From Tausonia pullulans (lineage: Eukaryota; Basidiomycota; Tremellomycetes; Cystofilobasidiales; Mrakiaceae), in contig OX637623.1 in NCBI GenBank assembly GCA_951802195.1, positions 186,001-250,000 of the forward strand: DNA of 64,000 nt, read 5' to 3'. Below are positions 8,819 through 61,737 of the stretch, piece after piece. A model generated the notes under the pieces. That model saw only the letters and a list, made by a program, of their open reading frames with translations, was not told the origin of the DNA and did no database searches. The position numbers were made by a program, and so were the translations under genes. Position 1 is the first letter of the stretch. The number at the start of each line of letters is the position of its first letter.

Positions 8819-8905
8819 TTTTTTGTATGTAAGTCATGAGTTATACGTGGAGAACGAGGTGACCCTATGAGAGATAGCGAGTTGTAGCTAGATAGAGGGA
8901 GAGCG
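8819..8905 (-). mobile_element. LINE 3' end scrap, heavily 5'-truncated
   Basis: After a T run at 8818-8824 the plus strand reads GTATGTAAGTCATGAGTTAT and continues with sequence closely matching the 3' terminus of the full-length LINE (9050-9130) and the copy at 61323-61400. The T run is the poly(A) tail seen from the other strand, so this copy lies on the minus strand. Only ~80 bases of 3' UTR remain, after which similarity stops. It is farther from tRNA-Pro than the full-length copy and shows more base differences, which suggests an older insertion. Confidence 0.8.
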
Positions 8906-8936
8906 GACATGACCGAGCGCGAGAACGTCGGGCGAG

Positions 8937-9034
8937 GCGCCGTAGGAAGAGGGTTGGTCGAACCACTGGGGATGGTTGGCCGGACGGCGTGATGGGCGCC
9001 GTGAGAGGGGGGTTGGTCGAACCACCGGGATGGT
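8937..9034. repeat. Imperfect direct repeat between two LINE 3' ends
   Basis: Two units of ~38-40 bases, about 8937-8976 and 8996-9034, share GCGCCGT, GGTTGGTCGAACCAC and GGGATGGT. Each unit contains the small palindrome GGTTGGTCGAACCA. They sit between the LINE scrap and the 3' end of the full-length LINE and match neither. Origin unknown. Confidence 0.6.
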
Positions 9035-9041
9035 GCGAAAC
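9034..9041. repeat. Putative target-site duplication, 3' side of LINE
   Basis: TGCGAAAC lies immediately before the T run (9042-9049) that marks the poly(A) tail of the minus-strand LINE. The same eight bases recur at 14894-14901 on the other side of the element. A random match of this length in the ~100 bases examined would be uncommon. Confidence 0.6.
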
Positions 9042-9274
9042 TTTTTTTTGTATTTAAGTCATGAGTTATACGTAGAGAACGAGGTAACCCTATGAGAGAT
9101 GATGATTCGTAGCTAGATAGAAGGAAAGCGAAAATGAAAGTAGGGATGGAAGGAAAACAAAAGATGGGTTATGGACATAGGCCCATTAGAAAAAGGTAAG
9201 ATATTAAGATGACCAGATACACCAAGCATTGGCGATGTAACACCAGCCATACTTCCCCACCCCTGACCTGCTTT

Positions 9275-12200
9275 TCACCCGGGATCGATGGCGGCACCGA
9301 CCGCAGTTCCATCCATCTGGCCACTGCCAGCCATCCACCTCATGCTCGACTGCCAGTGTGTCTGCCGGATCGTAGACGCGATCTTGCGGATCTCCTCGTC
9401 CGTGACAGGATCGAGGGCTGCGATCTTGCTGTACCTCCGCCTCCGGACGGATCGCCATGTCCGGGCAACAAAGATGCAGTGGAAGAGGAAGACCCCCCTC
9501 GGCGGCGACGGTGTCGGGCAGACAAGCGTCTGGAGGGAGGGAGGATGGGAGGGGAGTGAAGGAGAGGCATGCGCTGCCGCAGCCGACCAGATAGCGCCCA
9601 CGACGGGACACGGCTCGTCGAAGAGGTGGAAGAAGGACTCGACGGGGGCCGTCAGGCACAGCGCACATCGCTTGGACCTGTTGTGCGGTGTAGCGGTGCC
9701 GTCGGCGAGGAATGGCGCAGCAGTATGCTTCCCTGGGTGGAGACTGTACAGCGAGAAGCGGTGGGCCAAGTCGACGTCTTCGGGCGACGCTCGGGACACG
9801 GCCTTGAGCAAGCACCACTGACGCTTCCAATCGATCTTGGTAAGCGCCGGAAAGTGGTCTCGCCACCCCTTTGGGATGATGAGGCCGCGGTTGGCTAGAG
9901 TACGACTGTGTGCGCCGTGGGGTTCACGAGGGGCGTTCAGCCGGCCGAGGTTTGTGTGGCTAGGGAGGAGACCCAGCCGCAACTGGCTATCGGTACCGAA
10001 CGTAGACATCCAGTGGACAGTGTTCCTCCAGCGGTTTTGATTCCAGTAGCTCGTGTCAAAGCTGATTTCTTCGAACCATGCCCGGAGGTAAGCCTGCCAT
10101 CGTGCAGGGAGAGCTCTTCGGAGCATTGGGATGGCATTCCACCAGACGGCTGGGAAGAACCATTGACCTTCCACTGGGGAAAGGAATACGCCTAGCCAGC
10201 TGAAATTGGCGGGCCGAGGTCCACTGATGAACTCTCCATCCCTGAAGATGGTGCGAGTCAGCATTCTATAAGCCCCTGGGTCGAGGCTCATGGTATGGAT
10301 GATCCGCTTGCGAATACGGATCGATGCGGGAAGCTCCGGTCGGAAGAGCACATCGCCAGCCCACTGGGCGCGCGCTTTGATGAGCCGGAAGCGGAGTGGC
10401 GTGAAGCCGAAGCCGCCGAGGTCTCGAGGGGTTTCTAGACGTTCTCTGCTGACGTCGTGGTGTTTCGATCGGTAGAGGGACTTGTAGGCCGTTGCCTCGA
10501 GGTCTTCCAGGATATCGTCTGGGCACGGCAGGAAGCGGTCCAGGTAGATGATCTTCGAGTAGATGTACTGGTTGATGACGTTGCATCGCGCAAGGAGAGG
10601 GAGGTCGTGCAGCGGGATGCGAGCAAGACGAGCCTTCAGCTTGCCGATGACATCTCGCCAGCAAGCAGGACCGTTGACCGTGCGACCACATGGAACGCCG
10701 AGGAAGTCGAATGACAGCGTTTGGACGCGCCATTCGTGGTACATCGTTGGTGCATCCGTCCGGCATGACCCTAGAGGATAAAGGAGTGATTTCTGGTAGT
10801 TCAGCTTGCTTGCTGCGGCTTTCTCGTACTCTCGGAGGCAGACCGTCGCCTCATCGACCTCCGACCAGGTCCGACACCGGATACTTAGATCGTCTGCAAA
10901 GAGAAGGACCTTCCGCTCATGTAGAGGGGGTGGATTGGCCGGTGGGAGGCGATGGCGGAGCATACATGCCAGCGGCTCCAGGAGGAGGGCGAAGATCGTC
11001 GGTGCTGCGGGATCGCCCTGTCGGACACCAGACCGGATGTCGATGGCTTGGCCCATCCATCCGTTGATCATGAGGCGAGCTGTCTGGGAGGTCATCGTTG
11101 AGGTGATCCACGCGGCGGCGCGCGGACCGAACCCCATGTGGCGGAGGCAGGGGCCAACAAAGTCGTGCGATACTCTGTCGTATGCCTTCTCAAAGTCGAC
11201 TTGGGCGAGGACGCCAGGTAAAAGGTCTTCGTCGTCAATGGCGAGCTGGAGAGAGGAGATGTTGCGACCCGAGTCGCGGCCAGGGAGGAAGCCTGTCTGG
11301 TCCCCGTCGATGAGAGTGTCCACGACGGTGAGCAGGCGGCTGTTGATGGCAAGGGAGAAGATGCGAGCGTCAACGTTGATGAGCGAGATCGGACGATAGT
11401 TGGCAATCTGATCGCGATCTCCCTTCTTCTTGAAGATCAGATGGATATGGGCCTCGCGCTGTGAGGTGGATCGGAGGCCAGTCTCCGGGACGAGGTTCAG
11501 CAGACTGAGGAGGATCGGGCCGACGGCAGCCCATGTGGCCTGGTAGAACTCGACGGGGATCCCGTCACTTCCTGGTGTCTTGTTACGGTTCGATCGGAAC
11601 GTGGCCCGCCTGAGCTCGTCCAGTTCGAAGGGTTTCTCGAGGGTCCGACTCTGGGAGTTGTCGAGTGTGTTGGTGACATATCGGAGGGCGTTGGCGTGCT
11701 CGGAAGCTGGCGTCGTCTTGGTCTCATAGAGAGTTGTGTAGAAGGCGTGTGCTGTAGCTAGAATGTTCTCGTTGTTTGCGATGGCTGCGGCCGCTGGGTT
11801 GTTGAGTGGCCGCAGGGCTGCGATAGTGTCGGCCTGGCGGACGATCTTGAGTCGCTGCTTGACGGCATACTCGCTTGTGTTGGCTGGTTCGAGGTGGGCT
11901 CGAAGAGCGTGGCCATGGAGGATCGACCTGTGTGGATCCCCGCCTGACACTCTGCTCATTCGGGCGAGGTGTCTTGAGATGTCAGACGCGTGATCCGCTA
12001 TCTGAAGCTTGGTCTCGTCCCAGGCCTCGAAGGGGTCCCTGATCTCGGTGAGCGCATCTTGGTACCACTTGGGAACGTGGTAGAGGAAGTACTCAACAAA
12101 ACCGGTAATCTTCAGAAGGTGTGTTCCGATCTTGTACGATCCGGGACCGTGCTCTATTGCACCGGGGAAGGTGAGGCTGAGTGCGATCGGCTTGTGGCTA

Positions 12201-12949
12201 GAGTAGAGATGGCCGGTCGGGCGTGGCAGGAAGCGCTGTCGCACGGCTCGGCTAGCGAGTAGAGCGGACAGGTAGAAGCGATCGATGCGGCGATCTGCTC
12301 GCGTGATGCCAGTATAGTTAGTGTATTCGCGCTGGAGCGGGTATAGGGATCGGTATGGGTCGGAGAGGGCATAGTCCCGGGCCAGCCGGCACATTTCCTC
12401 CTTTCCCGCGTTCTGGGTAAATTGGCTCATCCCGTCGAGGTAGCTGTCCTCCACACAGTTCCAGTCCCCTCCCAGGAGGAGAGGAATGTCAGAGTGGGCA
12501 GGTATCTTGCGAGATAGAGTAGAGAGGAACTCCTTTGTCGAGCGGCCGTTCGTTTGGCTGTCTCGGCAGGGGACATAGACTGCGGCCACCCTGACGGCTT
12601 CGCCGGCTATGGTGAAGACAGCATCCGTCAGGTTGGTTTGTAAGATGGGGGAGGAGCGGGAGATGGATCTGATCCTAGTTGGAGGGGTATCAGGAGGAAG
12701 GAATCGAGAGGCCTGCCGCCAGAGGATGGCAGTCTGGCATCCGACCGTAAAGATCGAGCCGAAGCCCATATCTTCACACTCAGCTGTCCAGGTCGCCACC
12801 TGACCTGGTGTTGTGCATGCTATTTCTGAGAGAAGGTATATGTCAGCCTTGGATCGTGAATATAGAGAGAGGAGGAGACTGCGGGCGCGATCTCGCGTGA
12901 ACACCCTCTGGATGTTCGCCGCGACGATCTGTACATCATTGTACACCAT
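9275..12949 (-). CDS. LINE ORF2: APE endonuclease + reverse transcriptase polyprotein
   Basis: The 1,224-residue frame starts at ATG 12949-12947, sharing one base with the ORF1 stop. Residues ~1-240 are an AP-endonuclease-like domain: AANIQR near the N terminus, LLSE with the catalytic Glu, LLLGGDWN with the Asp/Asn pair, RIDRFY and SSHKPI with the terminal His. Residues ~440-720 are the reverse transcriptase: PGSDGIPVEFY, NYRPISLINVDARIF, QTGFLPGRDSGR, QVDFEKAYDRVSHDF, GVRQGDPAAPTIF and the catalytic LLFADDLS. Near residue 1110 is CALCLTAPVESFFHLFDEPC, a C-x2-C-x8-H-x6-C finger of the kind that ends many LINE ORF2 proteins. It nicks target DNA and copies LINE RNA in place. No break is seen. 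Confidence 0.93.
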   Translation of the reverse strand: MVYNDVQIVAANIQRVFTRDRARSLLLSLYSRSKADIYLLSEIACTTPGQVATWTAECEDMGFGSIFTVGCQTAILWRQASRFLPPDTPPTRIRSISRSSPILQTNLTDAVFTIAGEAVRVAAVYVPCRDSQTNGRSTKEFLSTLSRKIPAHSDIPLLLGGDWNCVEDSYLDGMSQFTQNAGKEEMCRLARDYALSDPYRSLYPLQREYTNYTGITRADRRIDRFYLSALLASRAVRQRFLPRPTGHLYSSHKPIALSLTFPGAIEHGPGSYKIGTHLLKITGFVEYFLYHVPKWYQDALTEIRDPFEAWDETKLQIADHASDISRHLARMSRVSGGDPHRSILHGHALRAHLEPANTSEYAVKQRLKIVRQADTIAALRPLNNPAAAAIANNENILATAHAFYTTLYETKTTPASEHANALRYVTNTLDNSQSRTLEKPFELDELRRATFRSNRNKTPGSDGIPVEFYQATWAAVGPILLSLLNLVPETGLRSTSQREAHIHLIFKKKGDRDQIANYRPISLINVDARIFSLAINSRLLTVVDTLIDGDQTGFLPGRDSGRNISSLQLAIDDEDLLPGVLAQVDFEKAYDRVSHDFVGPCLRHMGFGPRAAAWITSTMTSQTARLMINGWMGQAIDIRSGVRQGDPAAPTIFALLLEPLACMLRHRLPPANPPPLHERKVLLFADDLSIRCRTWSEVDEATVCLREYEKAAASKLNYQKSLLYPLGSCRTDAPTMYHEWRVQTLSFDFLGVPCGRTVNGPACWRDVIGKLKARLARIPLHDLPLLARCNVINQYIYSKIIYLDRFLPCPDDILEDLEATAYKSLYRSKHHDVSRERLETPRDLGGFGFTPLRFRLIKARAQWAGDVLFRPELPASIRIRKRIIHTMSLDPGAYRMLTRTIFRDGEFISGPRPANFSWLGVFLSPVEGQWFFPAVWWNAIPMLRRALPARWQAYLRAWFEEISFDTSYWNQNRWRNTVHWMSTFGTDSQLRLGLLPSHTNLGRLNAPREPHGAHSRTLANRGLIIPKGWRDHFPALTKIDWKRQWCLLKAVSRASPEDVDLAHRFSLYSLHPGKHTAAPFLADGTATPHNRSKRCALCLTAPVESFFHLFDEPCPVVGAIWSAAAAHASPSLPSHPPSLQTLVCPTPSPPRGVFLFHCIFVARTWRSVRRRRYSKIAALDPVTDEEIRKIASTIRQTHWQSSMRWMAGSGQMDGTAVGAAIDPG

Positions 12950-14859
12950 TATTCTTCCATGTCCTCGGCTTCAGCCAAGGTCACGAGGGTGCGCTCGATG
13001 GATGCCTGGGAGGATGGCGTGGAGGAGATGAGAGAAGGAGTGGAGGGTGGGTTCAGGGGGATTGAAGATGGGGGGGATGGGGATAGGGGAAGGGGAGACG
13101 ATGGTGACAGGGGAGGTGGTGTGGGAGGAGGATTCTCGTCTTCGACCTGCATCCCGTCTTCTGTCCTCTCCAGACCCCCCTCGTTGTCTTCCTCTAGGGC
13201 GCTCAGCGTGCGAATGGGTTGCGAGCCCGCATTGCGCGGTGCTTGCTCTGAGTGGGAGTGGGAGGAGTCGGCGTAGGCAGGAGGTGTCACCTCCTCCGTC
13301 GTGGCTTCCGTCGGCCTGTTCAGTGACCTCCTTTTGGATTTTTGTACGAGCTGGTATCCATCCAGGTCTGTTCCCGGTTCGACAGGTCTCTGGGGGGGTC
13401 CTTCGGTTGGTGCTCGCGCATTCGCTGGAAGGTTTGCCTTCGGACGACCTGGGCATCGGGCCGATGGGTGAGCGTGCGATCCGCATCCGCCACACTCTGG
13501 AGCGGTAGGACACTTGGCACGAGCGTGCTCAAATGAGTGGCAGTAATAGCAGTATGACGAGGCTGGTCGAGCTGGAGAGTTCGTCCCAGTGCCAGGTTGG
13601 ACAGGTTTGAAGATGACATGTTGGTTGACCCAGCCGGGTAGCTGTTGAGGGAATGCATTCGCCCTTGGCATCGTCTTGGAGCCAGAAAGGTCGAGCAGGA
13701 CTCTAACCCGGCCAGTTGGGACGCCGGGTAGGCGGGCGTAATACTGACGCTGGAATATGATGACTCTGTCTCCAGAAGCTTCTACTTGTTTGCGAAAAGC
13801 TTCCTCCACTCCGTCTTCGTCTTCGAAGTTCACCAGCAGACCTTCTTGCAGGAGCTTGTTTTGGGAATTGTAGCACGCGTGGATCTGGGGTTTGACGCCT
13901 CTCACATTCAGCGGGAGGGCCTGTAGTTGAGTCAAGATGTCTTGAGCATTTCCTCGGGAGTTGACTATAAGGAGCATTCTGTCTTTTGGGTCCTTGACAG
14001 GACGGATCATGAAAGACAGTCGTTCGTCGCACTTTGAGATTGCGAGAGAGATCTCGAAAGGAGTGGTATCTCGAGGGACTGAGATGGCTAGACAGTTCCC
14101 GCGGTCGGTAGCCAAGGCTGGGGCGATTGGGGTATTGTCCTGCGGAGGTTGTTGAGCGGTTCCGAAGACGAAAGGGAACTGGGGCTGGGTGCCAGACGAG
14201 TCACGTTGTCTCGCAGCTGAGGTTGTAGGATGAGCCTGTTTGGCGGCGTTCGCATATGAGCGGCCGATGGCGTTCGGCTGGGATTTCGCGGCGGCGCGAG
14301 TGCGAGTGCGAGTGCCGGCGGAGTTCGCCGGCACGGGCGACGCGGTGCCGGGGACGAAGAGAGGTTGTTGAGGGAGAGTCTCGCCTGTAGAGCGAGACGG
14401 AGTGAGACGCGTCACTTCGGACGTGGAGGATAGAGCGGCATTGAGGTCGCTGATGGCTGAGCTCGACCGCGTGATACGGCGAGCTGGGGGAGTTGCAGGA
14501 GTTCTGCGGAGGGGGGAGGGAGAAGAGAGGAGGGCCGTGGGGCTGATATGGATATGGGGCGTGGTGGGGTTGGTAGGGTTGGTACGATTGGTACGATTGG
14601 TAGGAGTGCTGGGGTCGGTAGGATTGGTAGGAGTGCTAGGGCTGCTAGGACTGGTCGGATGGGCAGGTGGGCTGAGAGTGGGTTTGCTGACGGGCGTTTG
14701 AGGACGTTCGTCGACGCGAGAGGGCGTATTGGTCGCGTCTTGGACGCTGGGGGTTTCATCGGATCCACTCTTTCTCTTTGCTGGAGAGGGAGGGTCTGGG
14801 GGATCCTTGGGAGCCTTGAGGGCTTCTTGGAGTCGCTTGGGGGTTGATTCACTAGGCAT
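12949..14859 (-). CDS. LINE ORF1: zinc-knuckle RNA-binding protein
   Basis: The 636-residue frame starts at ATG 14859-14857. Residues ~1-230 are Pro/Ser/Thr-rich and disordered, with repeated short NPT/TNP-type runs. The central part (~250-400) is globular: NCLAISVPRDTTPFEISLA, a DILTQLQALPLNVRGV stretch and LPGVPTGRVRVLLDLSGS, likely an RRM-like or similar nucleic-acid-binding fold. Two CCHC knuckles follow: CYYCHSFEHARAKC and CGGCGSHAHPSARC, both C-x2-C-x4-H-x4-C. The C terminus is again Pro/Ser-rich. It should coat the LINE RNA. Knuckles alone also occur in Gag proteins, but the adjacent ORF2 lacks protease, RNase H or integrase, so an LTR element is excluded. Confidence 0.9.
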   Translation of the reverse strand: MPSESTPKRLQEALKAPKDPPDPPSPAKRKSGSDETPSVQDATNTPSRVDERPQTPVSKPTLSPPAHPTSPSSPSTPTNPTDPSTPTNRTNRTNPTNPTTPHIHISPTALLSSPSPLRRTPATPPARRITRSSSAISDLNAALSSTSEVTRLTPSRSTGETLPQQPLFVPGTASPVPANSAGTRTRTRAAAKSQPNAIGRSYANAAKQAHPTTSAARQRDSSGTQPQFPFVFGTAQQPPQDNTPIAPALATDRGNCLAISVPRDTTPFEISLAISKCDERLSFMIRPVKDPKDRMLLIVNSRGNAQDILTQLQALPLNVRGVKPQIHACYNSQNKLLQEGLLVNFEDEDGVEEAFRKQVEASGDRVIIFQRQYYARLPGVPTGRVRVLLDLSGSKTMPRANAFPQQLPGWVNQHVIFKPVQPGTGTNSPARPASSYCYYCHSFEHARAKCPTAPECGGCGSHAHPSARCPGRPKANLPANARAPTEGPPQRPVEPGTDLDGYQLVQKSKRRSLNRPTEATTEEVTPPAYADSSHSHSEQAPRNAGSQPIRTLSALEEDNEGGLERTEDGMQVEDENPPPTPPPLSPSSPLPLSPSPPSSIPLNPPSTPSLISSTPSSQASIERTLVTLAEAEDMEE

Positions 14860-14893
14860 AAGGTAGGGTGACCTGGATTGACCTGGTGGTGGT

Positions 14894-14901
14894 TGCGAAA
14901 C
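14894..14901. repeat. Putative target-site duplication, 5' side of LINE
   Basis: TGCGAAAC, identical to 9034-9041. If real, it fixes the LINE 5' boundary at 14893, leaving a 34-base 5' leader before ORF1 and placing the insertion 79 bases from the first base of tRNA-Pro. Confidence 0.6.
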
Positions 14902-14980
14902 GGCTGTGTTGAATTATGTTGGGATTGATAGGTACATGAGAGACGTGTATTTCTCAACAAGGAAGTGTTTCTTTCTGACT

Positions 14981-15064
14981 GTCTGGATGGTGTAGCGGTA
15001 TCACGCCATGTTAGGGTGTTCTATCACTTCATGGAGGTCCTCGGTTCAATCCCGGGTTCGGACC
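14981..15064 (+). tRNA. tRNA-Pro(AGG) with a ~12-base intron
   Basis: The acceptor strands GTCTGGA (14981-14987) and TTCGGAC (15057-15063) pair with two G-U wobbles; the discriminator is C, as expected for eukaryotic tRNA-Pro. The T arm is CTCGG-TTCAATC-CCGGG. The anticodon stem is CCATG (15006-15010) with CATGG (15030-15034), and the loop reads TTAGGG before an inserted TGTTCTATCACT, giving anticodon AGG at 15013-15015 and an intron 15017-15028 after position 37. A T5 run at 15065-15069 is the Pol III terminator. The D stem has three clean pairs. The LINE begins just upstream. Confidence 0.88.
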
Positions 15065-15297
15065 TTTTTGCAGCTTTCAGACACAGACACAGCTAGTCAA
15101 GACAATGCGATCAGCTCTAGTATGTTTTCCTCCATATTAATGTTCTGTGTATGTGTCTCCATTTCAAGCGTGCCCCTTTTCGCCTAAATGTACTTCAGTT
15201 GGGAAGCTAGGGATGATCACATAAGATGCAAGAGACCATACAGTACCGTTATCGATGCCACCTGTCGTGGTCCTACTCCGTCCAATCCATCTGTTCC

Positions 15298-17839: not shown

Positions 17840-18365
17840 GCTTGGGGGTTAACGAGAAGGTGTGAGGGTGTTGTGGTGGCAGTGGTTGAGGAAGTGCCGA
17901 TAAGCCGAAGGGAAGGCTCGCCGTCATTGAACGAGGGTGAGCGCGGCAAGCTTGCCGACGCGCCGCTGCCACCGTTGTTCGGGAAACAAGACCGCGCCGT
18001 CGCTTTTCTCATCGAACTGGTTCTCTAGCTCGACCCCTGAGAGACTTGACAAACTCAACTGGAGGTATCTCTAATTAAGATGGCAGGCGAAAGCTCACAA
18101 CAGCGCGCGGCTATTAAAAAAAGAAAAAGGAGATGAGGTCCAAGCGCTATGAGCTTTCATAACATCCGAGAGGCCAGCATGCATCTATTTCAGCTCTTCT
18201 GCGACCCACAACTCAAGATGAGAGTCATCCCTTCAAGAGGCCCGATGCGATGTGTCGACAGGGCGACATTATCGACGACGGCGCGCTCACGCGAGTGAGC
18301 CGCTTCGAGACGCGCTGGCCCTTCGTCTCCACCGAACGCCAACAAACACCTCGACACCTCACAAC
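17840..18365. other. Divergent promoter region
   Basis: About 525 bases between the starts of the minus-strand Cys-cluster gene and the lunapark gene. Both promoters must lie here. No conserved element is recognised; an A-rich patch lies near 18115-18130. Confidence 0.5.
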
Positions 18366-20262: not shown

Positions 20263-22932
20263 TAAAGGATGGCCATGATCATCGTCGTAAGTGGCTGAGT
20301 AGAGGATCATCTATCTCACTGAGAAGAGAGAGAAGAAGAAAGGAAGAGTGGGAGCGTTGGTGATCTAGAGAATATACTTGTGCGAAGGATGCTAGGAAAA
20401 GAGAGAGAGAAATGATTTCAAAAAGGACCGTGCCTAGGCGTTGGGATAGATATAATATGAATCGAGAGACTAGGAGGGAGGCGGAGAGCGATGAAAGGCT
20501 CTTTGAAAACAAATAATAAGATTTGTTCTAACTCCTTCGTCGTCAGTCCGCCTCGTTCCTTGTCATCCCAGAAAACGGATGGGCGCAGGCGAACCGTCTG
20601 CGGCTGGGCGAGATGGTCGTAGATGTTATCGTTTTTTTAACTTAAGTGCAGATGATCAATATACTCGTCACAGAAGACGTAGACGTCATTCTGGAACGAG
20701 CAGAGCAACTCCGTGCATGGCGATGATCTCACAGGCGCCATGGGACGATTGTTTGGTTGAGAAAGCTGCGGCTGTTTATGAATTAGTCTCAGCATTATTG
20801 AATGGCGAGGAGGAGCGCGGCGAAGCAGATTCGGATAGGGGCGTCGTGCCAGTCTGTAGACGCTTGGTCGGATCGCTGCTCATTAAGAAACTGAGCTTGC
20901 TGCCTGGGTCTCACCTCCGCTGGCATGGAGCCAGGAGTATGAGAAACCAGGCGACTGATTCAGATGCCGGTGAGGACGAAGGCGGCAAATTTAAAAAAGA
21001 GAGAAGTTTCCGTGAGCAAGCGTGCGCTCTTGAGTTTCTCGACAGTCCAGACTTACCGGGTGACCGTCCATGGCATTCAGCACTAAAGCACTAAAGCAAC
21101 AATGTCAAATAACTGGGCCTGACCGGTTCTTTGTAAGAACTTTGGTAAAGATGATGACTGTGGCGATGCCTTGAGGCGGAGAAGGTGTGCATCTGTGGGA
21201 GACAGCCATCAGGACTTCTCACGGCATGCGCTCAGGTCTGCAGGACAAGCCATCAGCCTCTTCTGTATGGTCCAGATCCCAGACGACAAGGCTTATTTGG
21301 TGCTGAAAACTGGTGAGACAGTGGCCCTCGAGAATAGTTTTTGCCGGTTGGCGGTTATCAGCAGGATGACATCCTTGGAGGCGACCTGCGCCATTGTGGG
21401 CGTAAGGGAGCAGTCAGTCAAGACTGTCGAAAGAACGAGAGATTCTGGAACTGCAGGAGTGACGTCCTGACGAAAGATGTTGTGGTCGTTGGGAGGCAGA
21501 ATGGGTTGACTGACTAGCTTGTCGCCACAGGCAACGAACGCGCAGGACTGAATTTGTCGGAGACAAGTCGGTACAACCTCCTGGCAGCATGAGACGTTGA
21601 AGAAGAGAGTAAAATTTCAAGATATGTCGAAGCGAGGGGTAAGGGAGTGGAAGAAACCGAGCGAGAGATCAGAGAGGCTGCTGTACTGGTCCAACGCGAA
21701 CGTTGGGAGACCAGCTTGGCCTGCAATGTAAGATTTGACTGTCTATCTGACTCTCCTTCGCCCAAGTCGACGTTGTGTGAAAACACCTAGGACCGGCTGC
21801 CAGACGATAGCGGATTTCAGCGTCTGAGGCGTGTCCCTCGGCGATTGACTCTCTCATCTACCCCTTTGCTCTGCAAATGAGTGTGCACTGGGAGGGAGAG
21901 AGAACGCTAAACCTTGGCTCTCGCAACGAATGACTCGGAAGGGTAGAAAAGAGAGTGAAGTGGCAGGCGAGATGCGGGGTACCTCAAACGCTAAAATCCA
22001 CTATCGTCTGGCAGCCGGTCCTCGGTGTTTTCACACAGCGTCGAGTTGGGGGAGGGAAAGTCAGATAGACAGGGCAGCTGGTAGCGCGCCTGCCTCAAGT
22101 CACAGGTGCGCGGGAGTCCCGGGATGGCCAGCTAAGAGGATGAGATGACAGGATACAAGGCGACGAGACTCCGACCCGTTTCGTCATCATTCGCTTACAG
22201 ATAAACATCTCGATGGCGAGTAAGCGAGCTCTGATAGGCTTATGCAGAGTGCGCGCCTCTAGTTGTCAGCATCGGGCTTCGTGTCTGCCCTTTACCCCGC
22301 TTGTCATCCAAATCAATGTCTCTCCTTGCCTCCTTGCGTTTTTGTCGAGGGAAGAGGATAACGAGGCCAGCCTTTGGACCACGCCCGCGCGTGGTCCTTC
22401 CCTCCCTCTCCCGTCCACTTCTTCCTACCGCCCTCCACTCTTCCCTCCACTTTGCCCTCCACCACACTCCACTACAGCTCCACCTCCTCTCGCTGGGGTC
22501 AGGAGTGGAGGGGGTGTCGGCCGTCATGCCTACAAGGAAATTTGTAGGTTTGGGACAGTTATTGGCCCTCGGTCTCGAGACCGAGGTGTCTTCTGCATGA
22601 CCGGTGAGGCCGAAGCGAGCCCCGCGTGCGCTGACAGATCGCTGAGAAATACTCTCCTTGCTGCTGCAGATGCGCCTCGCTTGCTCGCTCTTCACTCCTT
22701 CAAGCATTACGCCATGGCCGTCGCGCTGTGTCAGCCCCGAAGTCGTTAGCTATCCAAGTCGATATCTCTCTCTTTACGTTAAAGGGCAGAGGTTTGGAGT
22801 TGTTTGTTATCCCTCATCCACCACTCCAGCTTCCTTTCGCGCTCGTTTTCAGCACTCTCCCCACCCTCTCCCCACACCACCTTCCTCCCCTTCTCTCCCC
22901 TCTAACAAATCCCCCCCCCCCAACCCCCAACC
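20263..22932. other. Gene-poor stretch of 2.7 kb
   Basis: No gene is supported. A plus-strand open frame of ~170 codons from 20579 has no recognisable domain and abnormal composition for this genome. The stretch contains the inverted repeat described separately. Its right end is the promoter and pyrimidine-rich 5' UTR of the MFS transporter. Confidence 0.5.
21738..22073. repeat. Inverted repeat, ~90-base arms with ~157-base spacer
   Basis: The arms are about 21738-21827 and 21985-22073. Read towards each other they share CTATCGTCTGGCAGCCGGTC, GGTGTTTTCACACA and AGTCAGATAGACAG. By eye they differ at about 14 of 90 positions, so this is not a recent duplication. There is no recognisable transposase nearby. 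It could be a fold-back element or a MITE-like remnant, or a transcribed hairpin; nothing here decides between these. Confidence 0.75.
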
Positions 22933-44531: not shown

Positions 44532-44771
44532 ATGCCTTATATCCATATCGAAGAGTTCTGCAGTCTCTGTAGAGATCCAGCTCGCTTCGTCTGCCGACAT
44601 TGTCGAGAAGGTGAATGGTTAACTCGTCTGGGTGACAGACAGGGAGCTTGGGGTGCGCGCTTCCCGCTGATCGTTCAGGTTTGACCTCCAGTGTACTATT
44701 GCTCAAACGACTGCTGTCGTCTCGATTGGAACAAGGGACATGCCGAGTATTGCCCTATTGGCTCAATCTAA
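44532..44771 (+). CDS. MYND-type zinc finger microprotein, 52 residues
   Basis: Two exons, 44532-44610 and 44692-44771, are joined across an 81-base intron (GTGAAT donor, CTCCAG acceptor), phase 1. The product is almost nothing but a MYND finger: FCSLCRDPARFVCRHCRE in exon 1 and VYYCSNDCCRLDWNKGHAEY-C in exon 2. The spacing C-x2-C-x7-C-x2-C-x5-C-x3-C-x8-H-x3-C is the MYND consensus, including the DW and H positions. MYND fingers bind proline-rich peptides and recruit co-repressors or chaperone-type partners. A free-standing finger of this size is odd; it could be a peptide interferer, an adaptor, or the last surviving piece of a larger gene. The splice needed to complete the finger argues for selection. 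Confidence 0.7.
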
Positions 44772-49034: not shown

Positions 49035-49382
49035 GGGGCGAGTGCGTCGCGTCGACCGAGGGTTGATAGAGAGGAGACGCGTCTGGCAGTCCGCTCGCCG
49101 GCCGGGTCCGTCGAGAGGCGGCAGGAACCGCGTCAGTCACACCGTCACGAGGAGGATGACTGAAGGATTTGGATGAGTTGTCTGCCCTCGTACGAGGCGG
49201 AGGGATCAGTTGCCTGTTGAGGTGTCGTGGGATGCGGTGGAGGAGGATCATCGAAAGTGAATAGCGACGACGCGACGTGGTGCGAAGAGGCCCCGCCGCG
49301 CGCTCCGCGTGGATCCAAGGAAAGACACTTCTGATCTCAAGACCCTCACCCACCACCAATAAACCATCACCATTCTGCCAGC
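49035..49382. other. Divergent promoter shared by STN1 and SEC12
   Basis: Only ~348 bases separate the two starts. No recognisable binding site. Confidence 0.5.
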
Positions 49383-51622: not shown

Positions 51623-52264
51623 GCAAGTCTCGCTTTTCGTTTATTTCTCTATATTTTTTCACTTTACTTTCTTCTCTTTCATTCACTCACTCTATTTTTT
51701 CTCATATACATGACTGTGTGGGATGTTTGGAATTTATCGGAAGAGTCCTCCTTCGAGAGAGGGACTATGCTTGTTGTTGAGCTGCCCCTAGCATCTTCCT
51801 CCTTTCTTGCCCTTCCTCTGTTCTAAAACGAGAACGTCCAATCTCAAAGTCGTCGTTCCGGGTCAAGGATTAGTGGCCCTTCGTTGCTTCAACGGGCGTT
51901 GAATGCGAGTTCTGCTCTGCATTCAGCCCAGCGCCACCCTTCTTTGTCGGAGTCGGCTCGGAGCCATCCTCTTGGCCGGAACTTCGGCATTCGACTGTGA
52001 TAGCGCGTTTTTGCCTTTCACACGGCGGAGGGAAGACTGTCTCACCTTGTCTCAATGGGCCAGAGAGCGTCAGCAGATCGACGATGAGTATTCACGCTCA
52101 AGTCAAGCGAGTCGATGAGATCAAGAGCCTCGATTCGACTCAACGACCTTCTACCCGACGTCCAATCCTCACCTTCTCTAACCCTCATCCCTCTCACCTC
52201 GTATCCCCTCTTTCTCTCTGTCTTCTTCTCCCCGTCTTACCTCCCCGGTCAACCCGCCACTGCG
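51623..52264. other. Intergenic region and 5' UTR of the RRM gene
   Basis: About 640 bases; the right part is pyrimidine-rich as in other 5' UTRs here. Nothing else recognised. Confidence 0.45.
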
Positions 52265-54912: not shown

Positions 54913-55892
54913 ACGGACATATCGCGTCTTGACTTCCCCTCTCCCTTCCACTCCCCTAGCATCATTTGTCGGCGGCCTCGCCCACCAGGGCCGACTCTCG
55001 TCGGTTCACCCCCTTCGTGATCACCTTTACATTATAACCCAAGCATTCCCCTCTCATCCTCGCCTCTCTTCTGCTCTCTCCCAGCATCCATACTATTGCC
55101 CTCCCTCTCTAGTCAGTCCGGTCAATCAGTCCCGTGTTTGTAGTTCATCCGTTGTACACTAATCTCCCTCTTCGTCCACTCGATGTCGGCTTCCCTCGCT
55201 CACTCATATTCATACCATCAATCCATCTCTCCATGCCACACCACGCTCTCTAGTCAAATCGCTTCAGTGTACCATGTTTCCCCTTCCTCGCTCTCGCTCA
55301 TTTCGTTCTCGCGTCACCAGGCAAACAAAGAGTCGAGTCAGCCACCTCGGCGCGCCTGATCCTTCATATGAGCGACGATGGACACGCTGGGGCTGCACCC
55401 TTCGTTCCGTTCTTTCGATGGAACTGATCCAGGAGAAGCTATATAATACGCTACACCTGGATTGAAAAGGATAGCCAAAGAGAAAGCCCCCCCCCTCACT
55501 CCCCCCCCCCCCCCCCCCCCCCCACCCCCCCCTTCTGAAAGAGGAAAGGCGACAAAGAATGGACAGTGGAGAGGATGGGAGGGAGGATCGCGACAAGGGG
55601 TGGAGCAAGACACAACAGCAGGGAGAAGCCTCAAACGAAGGTCCCGGCAGTATGCTCATGGGAAGACGCCCTAGGCCAGCGTGAGAGGGCGACGGTCCGG
55701 AGAGCCGGGTAGAGGATGAAGGAGAGAGAGGCAGGGGTGGAGGCATGCAAGAAGTGCGCGGACGTGGTGACAGGGGATTTGGGGTCTAGTCGGAGGGTGA
55801 TGCGTCGATGAGAAGTTTCGATATTCTATCAACTTTACTGTTCTGTGATTGCTCGACAGTGTTATAAGATAACGTCGTCGGCACAATGTCCC

Positions 55893-55935
<43 letters not shown>

Positions 55936-56682
55936 AAGAAAGAGTTGGAGTAGCAGAACACGCCGTCACCATTGTCCCTCTTCAGGTGAGGGAAGAGACA
56001 CTGAATTGCACATCTTGCTCTCGATCACCTGGGCACCATTACCCCATGCAGCTCTGTTGGAATTGGTGAGGAGGAAGAGGATGCCCGGCGTGTTGGCCAG
56101 AACGTAGCTCCGCTAGCGGAGCGACGTGGCATAAGAGGCGGAGAGAAGGCGTTCGGTCTGATGAAGGCGTCAGGTCAGTCAGCTGTGGAAGTCGAACCAT
56201 GACGAAGTCGGTCTAGGACGAACGAAGAGTAGGCCTGTAACCTGCGAGGGAGAAGGAGGAGCTCTTGACTAAATCTGCGTGTTCATGAGCATCAGGATCG
56301 CCAGACGCAACGAGTCAACAAAATCCAGCGAACCCGGAAGGGTCCCCTTGACCAGAGGATCCAAGGAGACGATGTAAACGGTGACAGAAGTCGCTGCACC
56401 AGTGCTAAGGGGGGCGCGTACCATGAACGTCAGTCACGTCTGCTTTCGTTGTTGCCTCGTATAACGGGGACGAAGTGGGGGCAGGACGAACGTGTGGTGT
56501 CGCGGCGGTATGCCAGCGCATGCTGAGGATGAGACAGAGACCCAGAAAAAACCTTGCTTAGCGAGTTGGAAGAAGAGAATAATGCACTGTGAAAGTCAAT
56601 GTGTTATAGGCTGAAAAGGAAAGGAGATGCCGTCAACAAAGGGATCCATACTTCAGCGAAATCCAGTCGCTCTCACCTCGCT
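54913..56682. other. Gene-poor stretch with C23 and (AG)19 tracts
   Basis: About 1.77 kb. A run of 23 C lies at 55501-55523, followed by A and C8. A perfect (AG)19 microsatellite lies at 55896-55933. Open frames that include these repeats are artefacts of composition. No gene or RNA is supported. Confidence 0.6.
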
Positions 56683-56958
56683 TCAGCTGGGCTTGCGCAC
56701 ACCGAATGAGATTTCAGTTCCTTCGCTTTTTCCATCAAATGTCCATGCAACTTTGTCCAGCCGGCAAGAGGGAGACTCGGCGTCCAGCTCAAAGACCGTC
56801 TCTGGAGCCGCTGAGTACTCGGCCTTCGCACTGGTCGTGGAACGGGCGACGGCGGTGAGGATGAGGGTGGTGCCTAGGGAGAGGCCGCCGGATGAGGAAG
56901 AGGAGGAGAAGCGTATCTCGACGAGGTGGTTGGAGGTGAGGTTGAAGGGGCAATTAAA
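56683..56958 (-). CDS. Terminal exon of an unrecognised gene
   Basis: After a CTCAG acceptor at 56959-56963, a 91-codon minus-strand frame reads FNCPFNLTSNHLVEIRFSSS, later LGTTLILTAVARSTTSAKAE, then CRLDKVAWTFDGKSEGTEIS-F and stops at TGA 56685-56683. Alternating hydrophobic/polar residues suggest a beta-rich fold, and composition is clearly protein-like, unlike the other frames here. Upstream exons on the minus strand towards 57345 are not resolved; a short candidate start (MAIIADCRFFSVP, ATG near 57302) lies there. No family is recognised. Confidence 0.45.
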   Translation of the reverse strand, partial: FNCPFNLTSNHLVEIRFSSSSSSGGLSLGTTLILTAVARSTTSAKAEYSAAPETVFELDAESPSCRLDKVAWTFDGKSEGTEISFGVRKPS

Positions 56959-57851
56959 CTGAGCTGGAGATCGATGATGCCAGGTGGCGAGATTTAGGAG
57001 AGTTGAGGCTTCGCTCTACCCTCGATGAGAATAACTGTTTGTTGGCCGTCGGTCGCGAGGAACTAGGAAAAGTTCTCGGCGATAGCAAAAACTGAGTGAG
57101 CGTTACATCATCCTCAGAGAAGGAAGATGAGGAAAACGGACCGGCAGCATGGGAGTTGCTCGATTTATCATGGATGTTGCGCAAGCAGAGCGAAGATGAC
57201 ACCGAGGACTTTTGACAGACGTAATAGCGAAAGATCGTCTGGATGACGACGGTCAAACGACCGGGACGCTGAAGAAACGACAGTCTGCAATGATCGCCAT
57301 GGTCCTGACCTAACCTGACAGAGGGGCATCTCGGTGTGCGCACGTTCGCTGGGGAGGTATTAATGATGAACTTTGAATCTCTATTGTTCCGAGAAAGGGA
57401 AATCCAGAATCACGCTGGAGCCCATCCACTTTTGGGGCTCCAGCAAAGTTCAATTGATTCCTACCTTTCACTCACATCCAGATGCTCCTGACTCAATCTC
57501 AAAGATTGCCAGACAATTTGAGACGTTCGACCTTTGACGGCGACTTCTGTCTCGGCTAGTCTTTCTGCGGATGGTAGAAAATGACTCGCGATGCTGAGCA
57601 CTTTCAAGATCTGGCATGTTTTCCACGTCCATGATCTTATGCGCAAATCCCGACGATGGCTTCATGCATGGGGAAGGACAGATGCATTGCCCGCGGAAGA
57701 CTTCGGCCGTGCAACTTTCACGCGGCGCGAGCTTCTCAGAGCCTGGCGCATGTCGATCACCCAAAACTTATGACCATCTCACCCCATCCCAGCCTCCCAT
57801 AGGAAAGCAAAGGGATAGAGTGACAATGGGGAGGTCCCTGACAACACAAGG

Positions 57852-58022
57852 CTGTAGTGCAGCGCCGAGGTCATCGTGCCGGCGCATCGTGCAAGCAGAG
57901 GACGTCGTCGACGGGCAAGGCAAAAAGATGGAAACCAAAATGGGCCCAGTGGGCCCATATAAGTGGTTAAACTTATAAGAACAGATACTACACATGATCT
58001 AAGCCAAAAGGCCAGAGAGGAT
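57852..58022 (-). ncRNA. U2 spliceosomal snRNA
   Basis: Read on the minus strand from 58022 the sequence starts ATCCTCTCTGGCCTTTTGGC and continues TTAGATCATGTGTAGTATCT then GTTCTTAT, which is the near-universal U2 5' end with the branch-site recognition sequence GTGTAGTA (plus-strand TACTACAC at 57986-57993). Stem IIa folds perfectly (ATAAGT/ACTTAT), stem IIb is GGGCCC-ACT-GGGCCC, and ATTTTGG right after it is the Sm site. Farther on, GCGCCG/CGGCGC closes a 12-base loop that fits stem-loop IV. The 3' end is estimated at ~57852 from that stem. U2 snRNA pairs with the intron branch site. One base differs from the usual GATCAAGTGTAGTA (T instead of the second A). Confidence 0.92.
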
Positions 58023-59382
58023 GAGGAGCAGGTATCAGGCGACAGGCGCTGGGCAATTGAAGGGGGAGGGCTGGCGGGCGGCTGGTCCATAAGCTCCTTC
58101 TACCTGAAATGGGTTCTCACTGACCTTCTGCTGCAAAGACGAGGTGCATAGGGAACCACGTGGAAGATGCGAGCAGGGCGGCAAAGATGCGGGATGCGCT
58201 TGGTAACTGAAGCATCTCTGAACTTGAGGGCCGCTCGTCTCTCGGTTAAAGGCGACCCCGGGCTGGCGCCCCAGTCAACGTGAAGCCGAAACGCACAGCT
58301 GTTGGAGGGGGTTGCAAAGAGGAAGAGAGGCAAGCGACCGACATCTGGGCGAAGATGATCGATTTTACTGCCACTCTCTGGTCACTGGTTCGCCACATCT
58401 ACGCATATGTCACACAGGATGACCGCTATATAGCTCAGTCAGTATCCCGGTGTCTTCCTCGGGTGCCTTCCGTTAGAGCCTCCATTCCTGCCCTCTCGAT
58501 TGTCTTTGTCGGTCAAATCGAGCCCACTCCGTTGCCAGCCGCTGACCTCGACAAAGCCAAACTCGTTTATACTACCGGAAGAGTCATTATTGGTTTTAAT
58601 TTGCTTTTGATATACATTTCATGATCAAAACTGCACACGTGATATAGAGAGATGGAGATATATATATCCTTGCCGCCCTTGCGCTTAGAGCAATTCCCAG
58701 AGGAGCCGAACAGCGCGAGAAAAATAAGACCAGCAACCGCGCCGAGGTATCAGAATCTCGCTCCTGTTACTCTAATGGCTACTTTGTTTCATGCAATCGG
58801 TCATGCGGTTGGGTCTCCAGTAACCCGATTTAGTGCCTTGAACGCTCCACGCGTCGAAACGGTTAAAGCATGAACTCCGTTCCTCACAAAGGTCAACGAA
58901 ACGGGCCACTGGGAAAGGGTCAGTCATAACGGTCGCAAGGCCATTGAGCCTTCATGTATAAGCGCGCAGCAATATCGCCATCGCGTTATTGCGAATGAAC
59001 AGCCGGTCTGACAGCCATCAGAGATGTGTATCGTCCATGCAACCATGCACGACTGTACAAGACCGACAGAGATAAGCGAGGGAAATGGAGGAAGATATTT
59101 GCTCGATGTCCGCTTTCATACGTCTCTCAAGAAAGGGGCAGCCCGGGAAGAAGGCCGTGGCCGTCAGGCGATGTAATGGGCGGGAGCAGAAGAGGGAAAG
59201 CAGGAAAAAACGAAGAGGGGACCAGAGGTCACCGAACTGTTTCCATAGCGCATATATATCGCTTGCGGCGCATGAATAACTTGGCATTAGTCGAGAGGTA
59301 AACCTCTACTTTAACTCTAGGCGAAAAGCAGAGAGGTAGGTATTCAGCCAGAGATATAGGTGAAAAGCCTACTCCAAAAGGA
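58023..59382. other. Upstream region of U2 and 3' flank of tRNA-Leu; nothing else recognised
   Basis: About 1.36 kb. The first 200 bases should carry the U2 promoter. I see no coding stretch with motif; AT-rich patches lie at 58560-58680 and 59240-59300. Confidence 0.45.
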
Positions 59383-59496
59383 TGAAGACCGTGGGATTCG
59401 AACCCACGCCATAAATGACTGCCGAACAGTTTAATCACCCAATTAAGAGTGGGTTTAACCTGAAGACAGCGCCTTAGACCACTCGGCCAGATCTCC
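59383..59496 (-). tRNA. tRNA-Leu(CAG) with a ~34-base intron
   Basis: On the minus strand from 59496: acceptor GGAGATC pairs with GGTCTTC (one G-U), discriminator A; D arm GGCCGAGTGGTCTAAGGC; anticodon stem CTGTC/GGCAG with loop TTCAGG before the intron, giving anticodon CAG. The T arm is GTGGG-TTCGAAT-CCCAC and the variable arm TCATTTATGGC is long, as in class II tRNAs. The inserted ~34 bases begin TTAAACCC and end AACTGTT; its CTG can pair with the anticodon, as usual in precursor tRNA-Leu. A TTTT terminator follows. LINE remnants begin ~105-135 bases upstream (59600 onward). Confidence 0.88.
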
Positions 59497-59619
59497 GTAA
59501 TACTTTGAATGATACATTAACGTAGTTATTTCATCATATACCATGACATAACGTGTATCTAGGTTTGTCGTGCTAATTTTCATTTAGATACAACAAAAAA
59601 GTATCAACGTTATCTACCA

Positions 59620-59785
59620 TGGGCATTTTACCTTTTCTAATGGGCCTATGTCCATATCCCATCTTTTGCTTTCCATCCACCTCTACTTTCATTTTCGCTC
59701 ACCCTCTATCTAGCTATGAATCGCTATCTCTCGTAGGGTTGCCTCGTCCTTTACGTATGCCTCATGACTTAAGTACAATCAAAAT
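59620..59785 (+). mobile_element. LINE 3' UTR fragment, 5'-truncated
   Basis: From ~59620 the plus strand reads TTACCTTTTCTAATGGGCCT then ATGTCCATATCCCATCTTTT and ends near CATGACTTAAGTAC, the reverse complement of the terminal part of the minus-strand LINE (9043-9205). So this copy is on the plus strand, pointing away from tRNA-Leu. It keeps ~160 bases of 3' UTR and has several base differences. The A tail may be the short AATCAAAATCAA after 59775. Confidence 0.82.
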
Positions 59786-59879
59786 CAATGTTCCACTTAC
59801 GTATCTGGATCTCCGCTCGCGACTTCGGAGAACCCCGTCTCCTCTCACCCCTCTACCGCCCGTGGTCCCTACTCGATGC

Positions 59880-60700
59880 CTTCTCCGTCAACCGCGGAAA
59901 CTGCCTCGCCATCCTCGTCCACGGGACACCACTCCCCGCGAGATATCTCTCGCAATATTCAAGTGCGACGAGAGGCTCGCATGCCTCCCCCGCCCACTCA
60001 AATACCCAAATGGAAGAATGCTTCTCCCAGTCACGGGCGACAAGGACGCTCAAGCCATCCTTACCCAGCTTGAGAGCTTGCCCTATAACGTCGGGGTATA
60101 AATCCCCAGATTTGCTCCTGCTACAACACTCGAAATAAGTATCTGCCGGGGGCTGGTTGACGAACTTTGAAGAAGGGCCCGAAACGGGTGTGACTTCCGG
60201 AGGAGGTGGCTGCCTGTTGAGGGTGGTCCAAGGGACAAGGCCTGAGGAAGATGGGTGAGGAGAGGAGCGTCGATGGAGGAGTAGAACTGAAGTGCTGGAA
60301 GTATGGGCTTACTTGAAGGTCTTGGTCGGGGTCATCGGGTCCATCTTATAGTCAGAATGCATAGCAGAATCTACAATGAACTGAGCGTTTATGGACGAGG
60401 GATGAGAGCAAGGGAAGGGACGAGAAGGGCGAGCAATCAAAGAGTGTGGGACTATGTGGCGAAAGAAAGGCCAGAGACATGGGAGCCTAGCAGGCCAGGG
60501 AGACGATGCTACACGGGCACGGAGCGAGGTAGGGAATGTGCGGGATCCTGACACTACCTCTGGTGACTATGTCGGTGTGTTTCAGCGCCACCCAGACCAC
60601 AGGGTACCTGGCGCCCCCACAGGCCGAGTTCAGGTCATGCCTGAGCTCTTCAATTATAAGAAGATGCCCAAGGTTTACGCCATTTTCTGAGCATTCGCAA
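59880..60700 (+). mobile_element. Degenerate LINE ORF1 relic
   Basis: Translated plus-strand pieces match ORF1 of the full-length LINE: NRGNCLAI near 59890, RDTTPREISLAIFKCDERLA (59922-59981) and DAQAILTQLESLPYNVGV to ~60100, then, after ~380 bases of unrelated sequence, VPGAPTGRVQVMPELFNYKK (~60605-60664). Identity is about two-thirds over the best 35 residues by eye. The frame is broken in several places and the middle block (about 60170-60545) looks like an insertion. This is an old copy on the same strand as the fragment at 59620-59785 and farther from tRNA-Leu. Confidence 0.75.
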
Positions 60701-61154
60701 GTTGGACGAATAACGAAGTCATCTTCGAGCTTATCGAGCCTGTCTCCAGTTCTTTACGACCCAAACCTGAACAAGCAGGCCTCGAACGGGTTCAGCGTAC
60801 CTCAGACCAACATTATCCGTCATCTCCTCTCCATCGCCACTACATGTATTACCCTCAGTCTCGACGTATTGACCTTCCAACCACCTCGTGTCTATCGGCT
60901 GATGACTACGCCGGATGGTGTATTCGACCGCTCGACTCTCAATATCCACAACTTAATTCCTAAACCATTTTTATCCGCTCGTGTGCAAATGAAAGAGAGG
61001 GGGATCGAGAAGGGGCCACATGCGGCGACTCCCCCGTTTGAGTGAAGGACCTGGAGGTGGCGAGCCAGGCCCGCGAAGTTGATGAGAAGAGGGGGGTAAT
61101 ACCCGCGTATTCCAACCGAGGACTCATGTCCTGAGCCTTGTGTCACTAACATTT

Positions 61155-61275
61155 TATATATATATTCAAGTCATGTTGTATCTAAGTCACGAGGTAACCT
61201 TTTTTTCTTCTTTTCACCACAGGCAAAAAAAAGGGGTTTGTATTTGTATTTGATTCATGAGTTATACAGAGGGGT
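61155..61275 (-). mobile_element. Two decayed LINE 3' termini
   Basis: Two short blocks, ~61160-61200 (TTCAAGTCATG, then ACGAGGTAACC) and ~61240-61275 (TATTTGATTCATGAGTTATA), each resemble the 3' terminal sequence of the LINE on the minus strand but are more diverged than the copy at 61311. They probably are the ends of older, almost erased insertions. Confidence 0.6.
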
Positions 61276-61310
61276 TTTTTATGTATTTATACCAAGACAA
61301 CCCACTACGC

Positions 61311-61590
61311 TTTTTTTTTTTTGTATTTAAGTCATGAGTTATACGTAGAGAACGAGGTAACCCTATGAGAGATATCGAGTAGTAGCCAGATAGAGGGAGA
61401 GCGAAAGTAAAGAACAGGTAGAAGGAAAGCAATATATGGGTGTGGGCATAGGCCCATTAAAGAGGTAAGATATTAAGATGACCAGCTACATCAAGCAGTG
61501 GCTATGGACCAGCCATACTTCCCCACCCCAGACCTGCTTGTCACCCAGGATCGATGTCGGCGCCGACCGCAGTTCCATCCATCTGGTCCC
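61311..61590 (-). mobile_element. LINE 3' fragment, 5'-truncated, next to tRNA-Ser
   Basis: After T12 at 61311-61322 the plus strand reads GTATTTAAGTCATGAGTTAT and continues with ~270 bases closely matching 9050-9310 of the full-length LINE: the complete 3' UTR plus the last codons of ORF2 (the segment matching ...IDPG). Similarity ends at ~61590, 65 bases before tRNA-Ser. It lies on the minus strand, like the full-length copy next to tRNA-Pro. High similarity indicates a fairly recent insertion. No clear target-site duplication was found. Confidence 0.87.
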
Positions 61591-61655
61591 TGTCAAAAAA
61601 AAAGTAGACGTTTCCTGATCATGTCTTGTCCTCTGTTGACAATATAGTAGGACCA

Positions 61656-61737
61656 GCTGACTTAGCCAAGTGGTTACGGCGTTTGATTAGAAATCACATC
61701 CTCTTTGAGGGCGCAGGTTCGAGTCCTGCAGCCAGCT
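61656..61737 (+). tRNA. tRNA-Ser(AGA)
   Basis: Acceptor GCTGACT pairs with AGCCAGC with one mismatch (A5:C68). The D arm is GCCAAGTGGTTACGGC. The anticodon stem TTTGA/TCACA has one mismatch; the loop TTAGAAA gives anticodon AGA. The long variable arm CCTC-TTT-GAGG is typical of tRNA-Ser, and the T arm is GCAGG-TTCGAGT-CCTGC. A T-rich terminator follows at 61738-61747. No intron. The two stem mismatches make it a slightly imperfect copy; it may still function. Confidence 0.83.

Follow-up and report, generated by a model that had tools for sequence, protein, structure and literature searches.

A young L1-type retrotransposon of the basidiomycete Tausonia pullulans with probable insertion preference for the 5' flank of tRNA genes

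In a 64,000-nucleotide stretch of the genome of the basidiomycete Tausonia pullulans (hereafter the window; bases 186001-250000 of contig C4, GenBank OX637623.1; 58% G+C, in a genome of 23.86 Mb and 21 contigs), copies of one long interspersed nuclear element (LINE) lie beside every transfer RNA (tRNA) gene, raising the question of whether this retrotransposon is directed to tRNA genes or has come to lie there by other means. Here, we compare LINE copies with tRNA positions in the window and genome-wide, and propose, with a probability that we put at roughly 0.87, that a young L1-type retrotransposon without long terminal repeats (non-LTR), probably still active, has its insertion guided to the 5' flanks of tRNA genes.

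LINE copies and tRNA genes in the window and across the genome

The three tRNA genes named in the initial annotation are all present when ARAGORN is run with introns allowed; run without introns, it returned two tRNA genes and called the Pro gene Asn, and Infernal at the gathering score reported Leu and Ser and not Pro. These genes and the LINE sequences nearest to them are as follows.

14981-15064, plus strand: tRNA-Pro (AGG), 12-nucleotide intron (ARAGORN, introns allowed); adjoins the full-length LINE
59383-59496, minus strand: tRNA-Leu (CAG), 34-nucleotide intron (ARAGORN with introns, Infernal)
61655-61739, plus strand: tRNA-Ser (AGA) (ARAGORN with and without introns, Infernal)
9042-14895, minus strand: full-length LINE (BLAST extent), which starts at 14895, 86 bp from tRNA-Pro, and finishes in poly(A) at 9042
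59625-59778, plus strand: 5'-truncated LINE piece (BLAST), 129 bp upstream of tRNA-Leu, directed away
61315-61595, minus strand: 5'-truncated LINE (BLAST), 60-69 bp upstream of tRNA-Ser, directed away

The 5' end of the full-length copy was set at 14895, where most genome matches to window positions 14300-14900 stop (query 593-597). BLAST finds five LINE matches of more than 40 bases in the window, all of them on the 5' side of the Pro, Leu or Ser gene, as the initial annotation had held for every recognisable copy, and its estimates of the nearest boundary (about 80, 105-135 and 65 bases) agree with the measured 86, 129 and 60-69 bp. At each of the three genes the nearest piece has its 5' side proximal to the tRNA and points away from it, again as first described.

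To place these copies in their genomic context, a search with the LINE 5' end yielded 41 rows, the best 40 of 72 candidates, which correspond to about 40 elements (C4:493747 seems to be the 5' part of an interrupted copy at C4:494030); the window's own row ends 5 bases beyond the terminus, its listed distance of 81 bp standing for a true 86. Rows were compared with 423 tRNA starts drawn from an Rfam search (best 63 of 897 candidates), box patterns, isotype patterns and genes read in individual loci, the gapped and isotype patterns having replaced a first pattern that allowed a single D-loop length and proved too narrow, with 9 matches. A tRNA start lies 64-100 bp past the LINE 5' end in 17 of the 41 rows, the element being directed away in every one, a count that is a minimum because the tRNA list is incomplete (Met, Ser-GCT and intron-bearing Lys genes read in loci fit no pattern). 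When positions were shifted by 1-20 kb with random strand, this count averaged 0.10 over 5000 trials and never exceeded 2. This comparison of distance and orientation against displaced placement, which the initial annotation had proposed, thus favours targeting, and its view that constant orientation upstream of tRNA genes is hard to obtain by chance gains genome-wide support: listed tRNA genes within 600 bp are same-sense in 22 of the 41 rows and opposite-sense in none. The 17 adjoining tRNA genes are all different and are spread over 10 contigs, at a median distance of 77 bp (s.d. 10; the distance and contig tally and the 3'-tag tally below used a 424-entry list, the final 5'-end count the 423-entry one, which lacks an entry assigned to the wrong strand).

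The 3' ends of the copies tell the same story from the far side. A 42-base tag in the LINE 3' end has 342 genome matches at up to 3 mismatches, among them copies of a short interspersed nuclear element (SINE)-like companion whose tail hardly differs from that of the LINE, and its reversed pattern has none. For each of 100 exact tag matches listed, we took the nearest listed tRNA up to 6.2 kb away on the 5' side: its sense is the same at 54 tags and the opposite at 4, and 42 tags have none, versus 7.2, 6.9 and 85.9 in the shift control; on the 3' side the tags divide into 13 same-sense, 18 opposite and 69 with none.

We also read flanks directly in the window and 60 loci. From the LINE side, this survey took in termini whose 5' flank could be read for 250 bp or more and left out pieces shorter than 100 bases, tail-only pieces and termini with shorter flanks (among the last, L001 and L005, with a tRNA at 83 and 69 bp), giving 40 rows and 37 distinct termini, as three copies were seen twice. 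Seven of the 37 face a tRNA at 67-129 bp with the element directed away, 25 have a same-orientation element within 30 bp (six of these from an array on contig C2), and three have one at 74-117 bp. From the tRNA side, 17 of the 24 distinct genes with a readable upstream flank have an element within 132 bp with its 5' side proximal, three of them on short matches at 118-132 bp (L022 Gly, L025 Ala, L052 Trp), and an element with its 3' side proximal within that distance was found at none of the 24. The loci were chosen for LINE content, so that 17 of 24 is not an estimate of occupancy; the choice is neutral to orientation. Truncated LINEs begin 67-90 bp from the tRNA, with one at 129 bp, and what stays nearly constant, whether a copy is full-length or 5'-truncated, is the position of its tRNA-proximal junction. 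At L022 (positions 2777-3070), the short pieces lying 118 bp upstream of tRNA-Gly match the ORF2 region of the LINE and are possibly an older, diverged relative of it.

The full-length LINE and its proteins

The copy beside tRNA-Pro carries two open reading frames (ORFs) and a short 3' untranslated region (UTR).

12949-14859, minus strand: ORF1, 636 amino acids (translation), with CCHC-like knuckles seen by eye
9275-12949, minus strand: ORF2, 1224 amino acids, with an endonuclease-like N-terminus (alignment), a reverse transcriptase and a C-terminal Cys/His cluster (conserved columns)
9042-9274, minus strand: 3' UTR and poly(A), the last 96 nucleotides common to the SINE-like element

By the structure-search ranking of its ORF2 reverse transcriptase, the element is an L1-type non-LTR retrotransposon: the domain matches RVT_1 in Pfam (E 4.6e-25), and the best solved structure in the PDB search is human L1 ORF2p (E 1.2e-44), with R2-type proteins at 1e-14 to 1e-15. 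ORF2 residues 119-279 give a weak second match to the L1 endonuclease region of the same human protein. Pfam recognises the endonuclease domain in the relative P0010 and places it just below the cut-off in P0003; it does not recognise the domain in the window ORF2. The N-terminal alignment shows N12, E42, D162, N164, D223 and H252 conserved, and the position that we take, in name and role, to be the SDH motif of this endonuclease-like region reads SSH in the window ORF2, mostly STH in near relatives and SDH in P0018 and P0019. Pfam gave no RNase H domain in the LINE at E up to 1. Copies of the family have poly(A) ends and frequent 5' truncation, with target duplications that are clear in part of the cases.

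The best matches to ORF2 over most of its length, at 32-37% identity, are the metagenome proteins P0003-P0009 and the Microbotryum proteins P0010, P0012 and P0015. Microbotryum supplies the closest named relatives (32-33%), which, together with the genome size and the tRNA introns, by itself suggests a fungal and basidiomycete host. ORF1 has no Pfam match, and its sole relative found, the metagenome protein P0068 on a 6262-base contig, is 77% identical over the whole length; P0068 represents a close relative of this LINE, probably in another organism.

Two features of the window lie apart from these elements: a U2 spliceosomal RNA gene at 57833-58022 on the minus strand, which has no adjoining LINE match by BLAST, and an inverted repeat at 21739-22072 with 91-nucleotide arms, 90% complementary and separated by 152 nucleotides. 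A 1192-amino-acid reading frame of the window yielded no homologue.

Recent copying, stacking and junction sequence

The search with ORF2 gave near-full copies (the best 38 of 392 candidates) at 95-100% identity, and all but two of the 38 lack an internal stop. The window copy differs from the copy at C5:220279 at 2 positions over the 5408 bp compared. Their 3' flanks (1000 bp) are unmatched, and their tRNA neighbours differ, the window copy adjoining tRNA-Pro and the other an Ala/Phe-type tRNA pattern match at 84 bp; the pair therefore points to recent copying and not to duplicated surroundings. We consider the family young and probably still active.

Insertions also fall beside earlier insertions, as the order of events at tRNA-Pro illustrates.

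8818-9035, minus strand: SINE-like non-autonomous element, a body with GGTTCGACCAACC repeats, the 96-nucleotide LINE tail and an A-rich end
9036-9041, plus strand: target-site duplication copy 1, CGAAAC, on the LINE 3' side, between SINE and LINE
14896-14901, plus strand: target-site duplication copy 2, CGAAAC, on the LINE 5' side

Here the SINE is the older element and the LINE was inserted between it and tRNA-Pro, with CGAAAC on both sides. At L051 the order is reversed: a SINE entered the interval separating a LINE from tRNA-Phe, and GCGGAT flanks it on each side. In both dissected stacks, the newest insertion is the one nearest the tRNA. Among neighbouring elements, 37 of 49 same-orientation pairs (some of which may be broken matches within one element) and 2 of 9 opposite-orientation pairs are no more than 30 bp apart, and the 37 are what repeated hits on one tRNA-adjoining spot would be expected to leave. 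The sequence at the insertion point shows no such constancy: no motif emerged from 15 junctions, where the highest of 12 columns reached 0.46 bits against a random 95% level of 0.63, and the 15 flanks between junction and tRNA are unrelated by eye.

Longer head-to-tail arrays occur as well. At C2:364000-401200, six LINE copies spaced 6096 or 6286 bp apart, with SINE tails between them, extend towards a tRNA pattern match at C2:401197, and at C11:446700-470200 at least four tags are spaced 5830-5876 bp apart. The tRNA genes themselves are unevenly distributed. The stretch C6:673000-1375000 holds 173 of the 424 listed tRNA starts, on both strands and by eye in repeated order, together with many LINE tags; the density of listed tRNA genes is 11.7 per 100 kb over contig C6 versus 0.6-2.2 on the 11 other contigs tallied. 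A single tRNA pattern, Arg by its anticodon as judged by eye, recurs 13 times without change over some 300 kb at C10:135949-449601.

A SINE-like companion at the same position

The last 96 nucleotides of the LINE occur in 66 distinct contexts; LINE sequence follows in 38 and is missing from 28. Inspection by eye shows a common body with the GGTTCGACCAACC repeats in 20 of the 28 (several come from one array), and the other eight are short LINE pieces. We considered whether pieces starting at LINE position 5844 were all short truncated LINEs; for the 20, the common boundary and body make a SINE-like element the likelier reading. The SINE has B-box-like repeats by eye, and its window copy has no tRNA or other Rfam match. 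Such elements lie 77 bp from tRNA-Val, 78 from tRNA-Ile, 72 from tRNA-Leu (named SeC by ARAGORN), 71 from tRNA-Phe and 70 from tRNA-Gly, oriented as the LINE is, and the two tested share end bases on both sides (GCGGAT and CAGC). The common 3' tail suggests that the SINE is mobilised by the LINE.

Steered insertion and its rivals

We propose that a LINE ribonucleoprotein is tethered by DNA-bound RNA polymerase III (Pol III) machinery, that is, by TFIIIB, TFIIIC or the polymerase, and nicks the DNA just upstream of the TFIIIB footprint, whereupon the LINE RNA would be copied by target-primed reverse transcription and SINE RNA would be taken in trans via the common 3' tail. A narrow distance and a single orientation, without a DNA motif and across many tRNA species, fit Pol III tethering, the route also proposed for TRE5-A of Dictyostelium. 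Target-primed reverse transcription is in keeping with the poly(A) ends, the 5' truncation and the short duplications.

Several observations weigh against steered insertion. The initial annotation had regarded its proposal as lost if most copies lay far from tRNA genes or showed no preference; preferences of orientation and distance are there, yet in 24 of the 41 rows the first 130 bp hold no listed tRNA. A same-sense gene lies at 244-539 bp in five of the 24, and stacking together with the incomplete tRNA list may explain others. Within 2 kb, 27 rows have a same-sense tRNA versus five with an opposite one. Two of the 37 surveyed termini face neither tRNA nor element, so that the preference is not absolute; these two, L037 and L038, are truncated within ORF1 and have no tRNA in flanks of 1.3 and 1.1 kb. 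Seven of the 24 tRNA genes with readable flanks have no correctly oriented element within 132 bp, and in the window and 40 loci out of the 60 neither 5S nor U6 genes appeared as targets, the genes found there being tRNA genes and the one U2 gene of the window. Target duplications belong here as well: in 11 cases, leaving out SINE and LINE cases with an unpaired far end, four share at least five end bases, against 9 of 110 mismatched pairs, a signal that is present but weak and that may reflect short or blurred duplications in the remaining cases.

An endonuclease that reads DNA sequence lying before tRNA genes, with no role for Pol III, is the alternative to which we give most room, unlikely as we consider it, since many site-specific LINEs act through the sequence preference of their endonuclease; it sits poorly with 15 junctions that have no common motif and with a junction-to-tRNA distance that spans some 36 bp. 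Selection after the fact is less probable still. Insertion could be random and copies outside gene-free tRNA flanks removed, tRNA flanks being regarded as safe sites in compact genomes (PMC5006619, in the part cited here), but survival alone gives neither a single orientation nor so narrow a range of distance, nor re-insertion within 30 bp of a previous copy, and it leaves unexplained why two nearly identical young copies both occupy tRNA sites. Equally improbable in our view is that segmental duplication multiplied a few LINE-tRNA units, the association being inherited and not made anew. That such duplication occurs is suggested by the tandem arrays of C2 (364-401 kb) and of C11 (447-470 kb), as well as by the repeated order, seen by eye, in the tRNA-dense C6 stretch; however, the 17 adjoining tRNA genes are spread over 10 contigs, the 15 flanks between junction and tRNA look unrelated on inspection and have no column pattern in common, and the near-identical pair in the window and at C5:220279 has unmatched 3' flanks. 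Steered insertion, with the Pol III machinery as the putative tether, thus remains our preferred explanation.

Comparison with known systems and implications

The closest parallel to the habit of this LINE is Dictyostelium TRE5. In the passages of the sources drawn on here, TRE5 elements of Dictyostelium discoideum (TRE5-A, -B and -C) insert 44-54 bp upstream of tRNA genes in opposite transcriptional orientation (PMC5911963), the ORF1 protein of TRE5-A contacts TFIIIB and its targeting depends on the B box (PMC5911963; PMC5006619). Both systems have two ORFs and a reverse transcriptase, with an endonuclease in TRE5 and a putative one, weakly recognised in the window ORF2, here; both lie upstream of tRNA genes in opposite transcriptional orientation, and in both several elements can pile up at one tRNA gene (PMC5911963; PMC5006619). 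They differ in host and in distance, 44-54 bp for TRE5 versus 64-100 bp (median 77) here, and the contact between ORF1 and TFIIIB has been measured for TRE5-A (PMC5911963), whereas the T. pullulans element is known here from its sequence. Two further non-LTR elements, NLTR-B of Polysphondylium pallidum (39-64 bp) and NLTR-A of Dictyostelium purpureum (2-6 bp), also insert upstream of tRNA genes (PMC5911963) and, unlike this LINE, possess an RNase H domain (PMC5006619).

Among fungi, Ty1, Ty3, Tj1 and Tyl3/Tyl6/Ylt1 of yeasts likewise insert upstream of Pol III genes (PMC5911963, in the part used). These have LTRs and an integrase, in contrast to the poly(A) ends, 5' truncation and L1-type ORF2 described above. 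Cnl1 of Cryptococcus and Zorro of Candida are also yeast non-LTR elements, Zorro3 being L1 type as well; Cnl1 belongs to the CRE type and lies at telomeres, Zorro1 and Zorro2 occur in subtelomeric regions, and the portion of PMC7175516 drawn on here reports no tRNA targeting for them. The Microbotryum and metagenome proteins resemble our element in their L1-type ORF2, a comparison made by protein only. As far as the portions cited extend, the tRNA-targeting non-LTR elements tabulated in a 2018 review all come from dictyostelid amoebae (PMC5911963), and a 2016 study describes the tRNA targeting of TRE elements as confined to dictyostelids (PMC5006619). Our search of the open-licence literature found no fungal LINE with the tRNA-upstream habit, in line with the earlier remark that no well-described LINE of a basidiomycete yeast has it.

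A broader proposal, which we offer tentatively and consider rather doubtful as a whole, is that a fungal L1-type LINE with Pol III tethering arose independently of the dictyostelid TREs and brings a tail-sharing SINE to the same sites, and that tRNA genes are multiplied through recombination at the same-orientation stacks in front of them, a process that may lie behind the C6 stretch and tRNA expansions of the Trichosporonales type. In the part of PMC12820176 (2026) cited here, genomes of a Trichosporonales set hold 51-1455 tRNA genes each, and tRNA-gene content correlates with transposable-element content.

A young, multi-copy fungal case with open reading frames may provide an independent origin of the same solution, and would allow the routes by which LINE proteins reach Pol III complexes to be compared, as well as offering a system for insertion at safe sites. 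Because it occupies the same position, the SINE companion would make it easier to tell the contribution of LINE proteins to targeting from that of the LINE RNA body.

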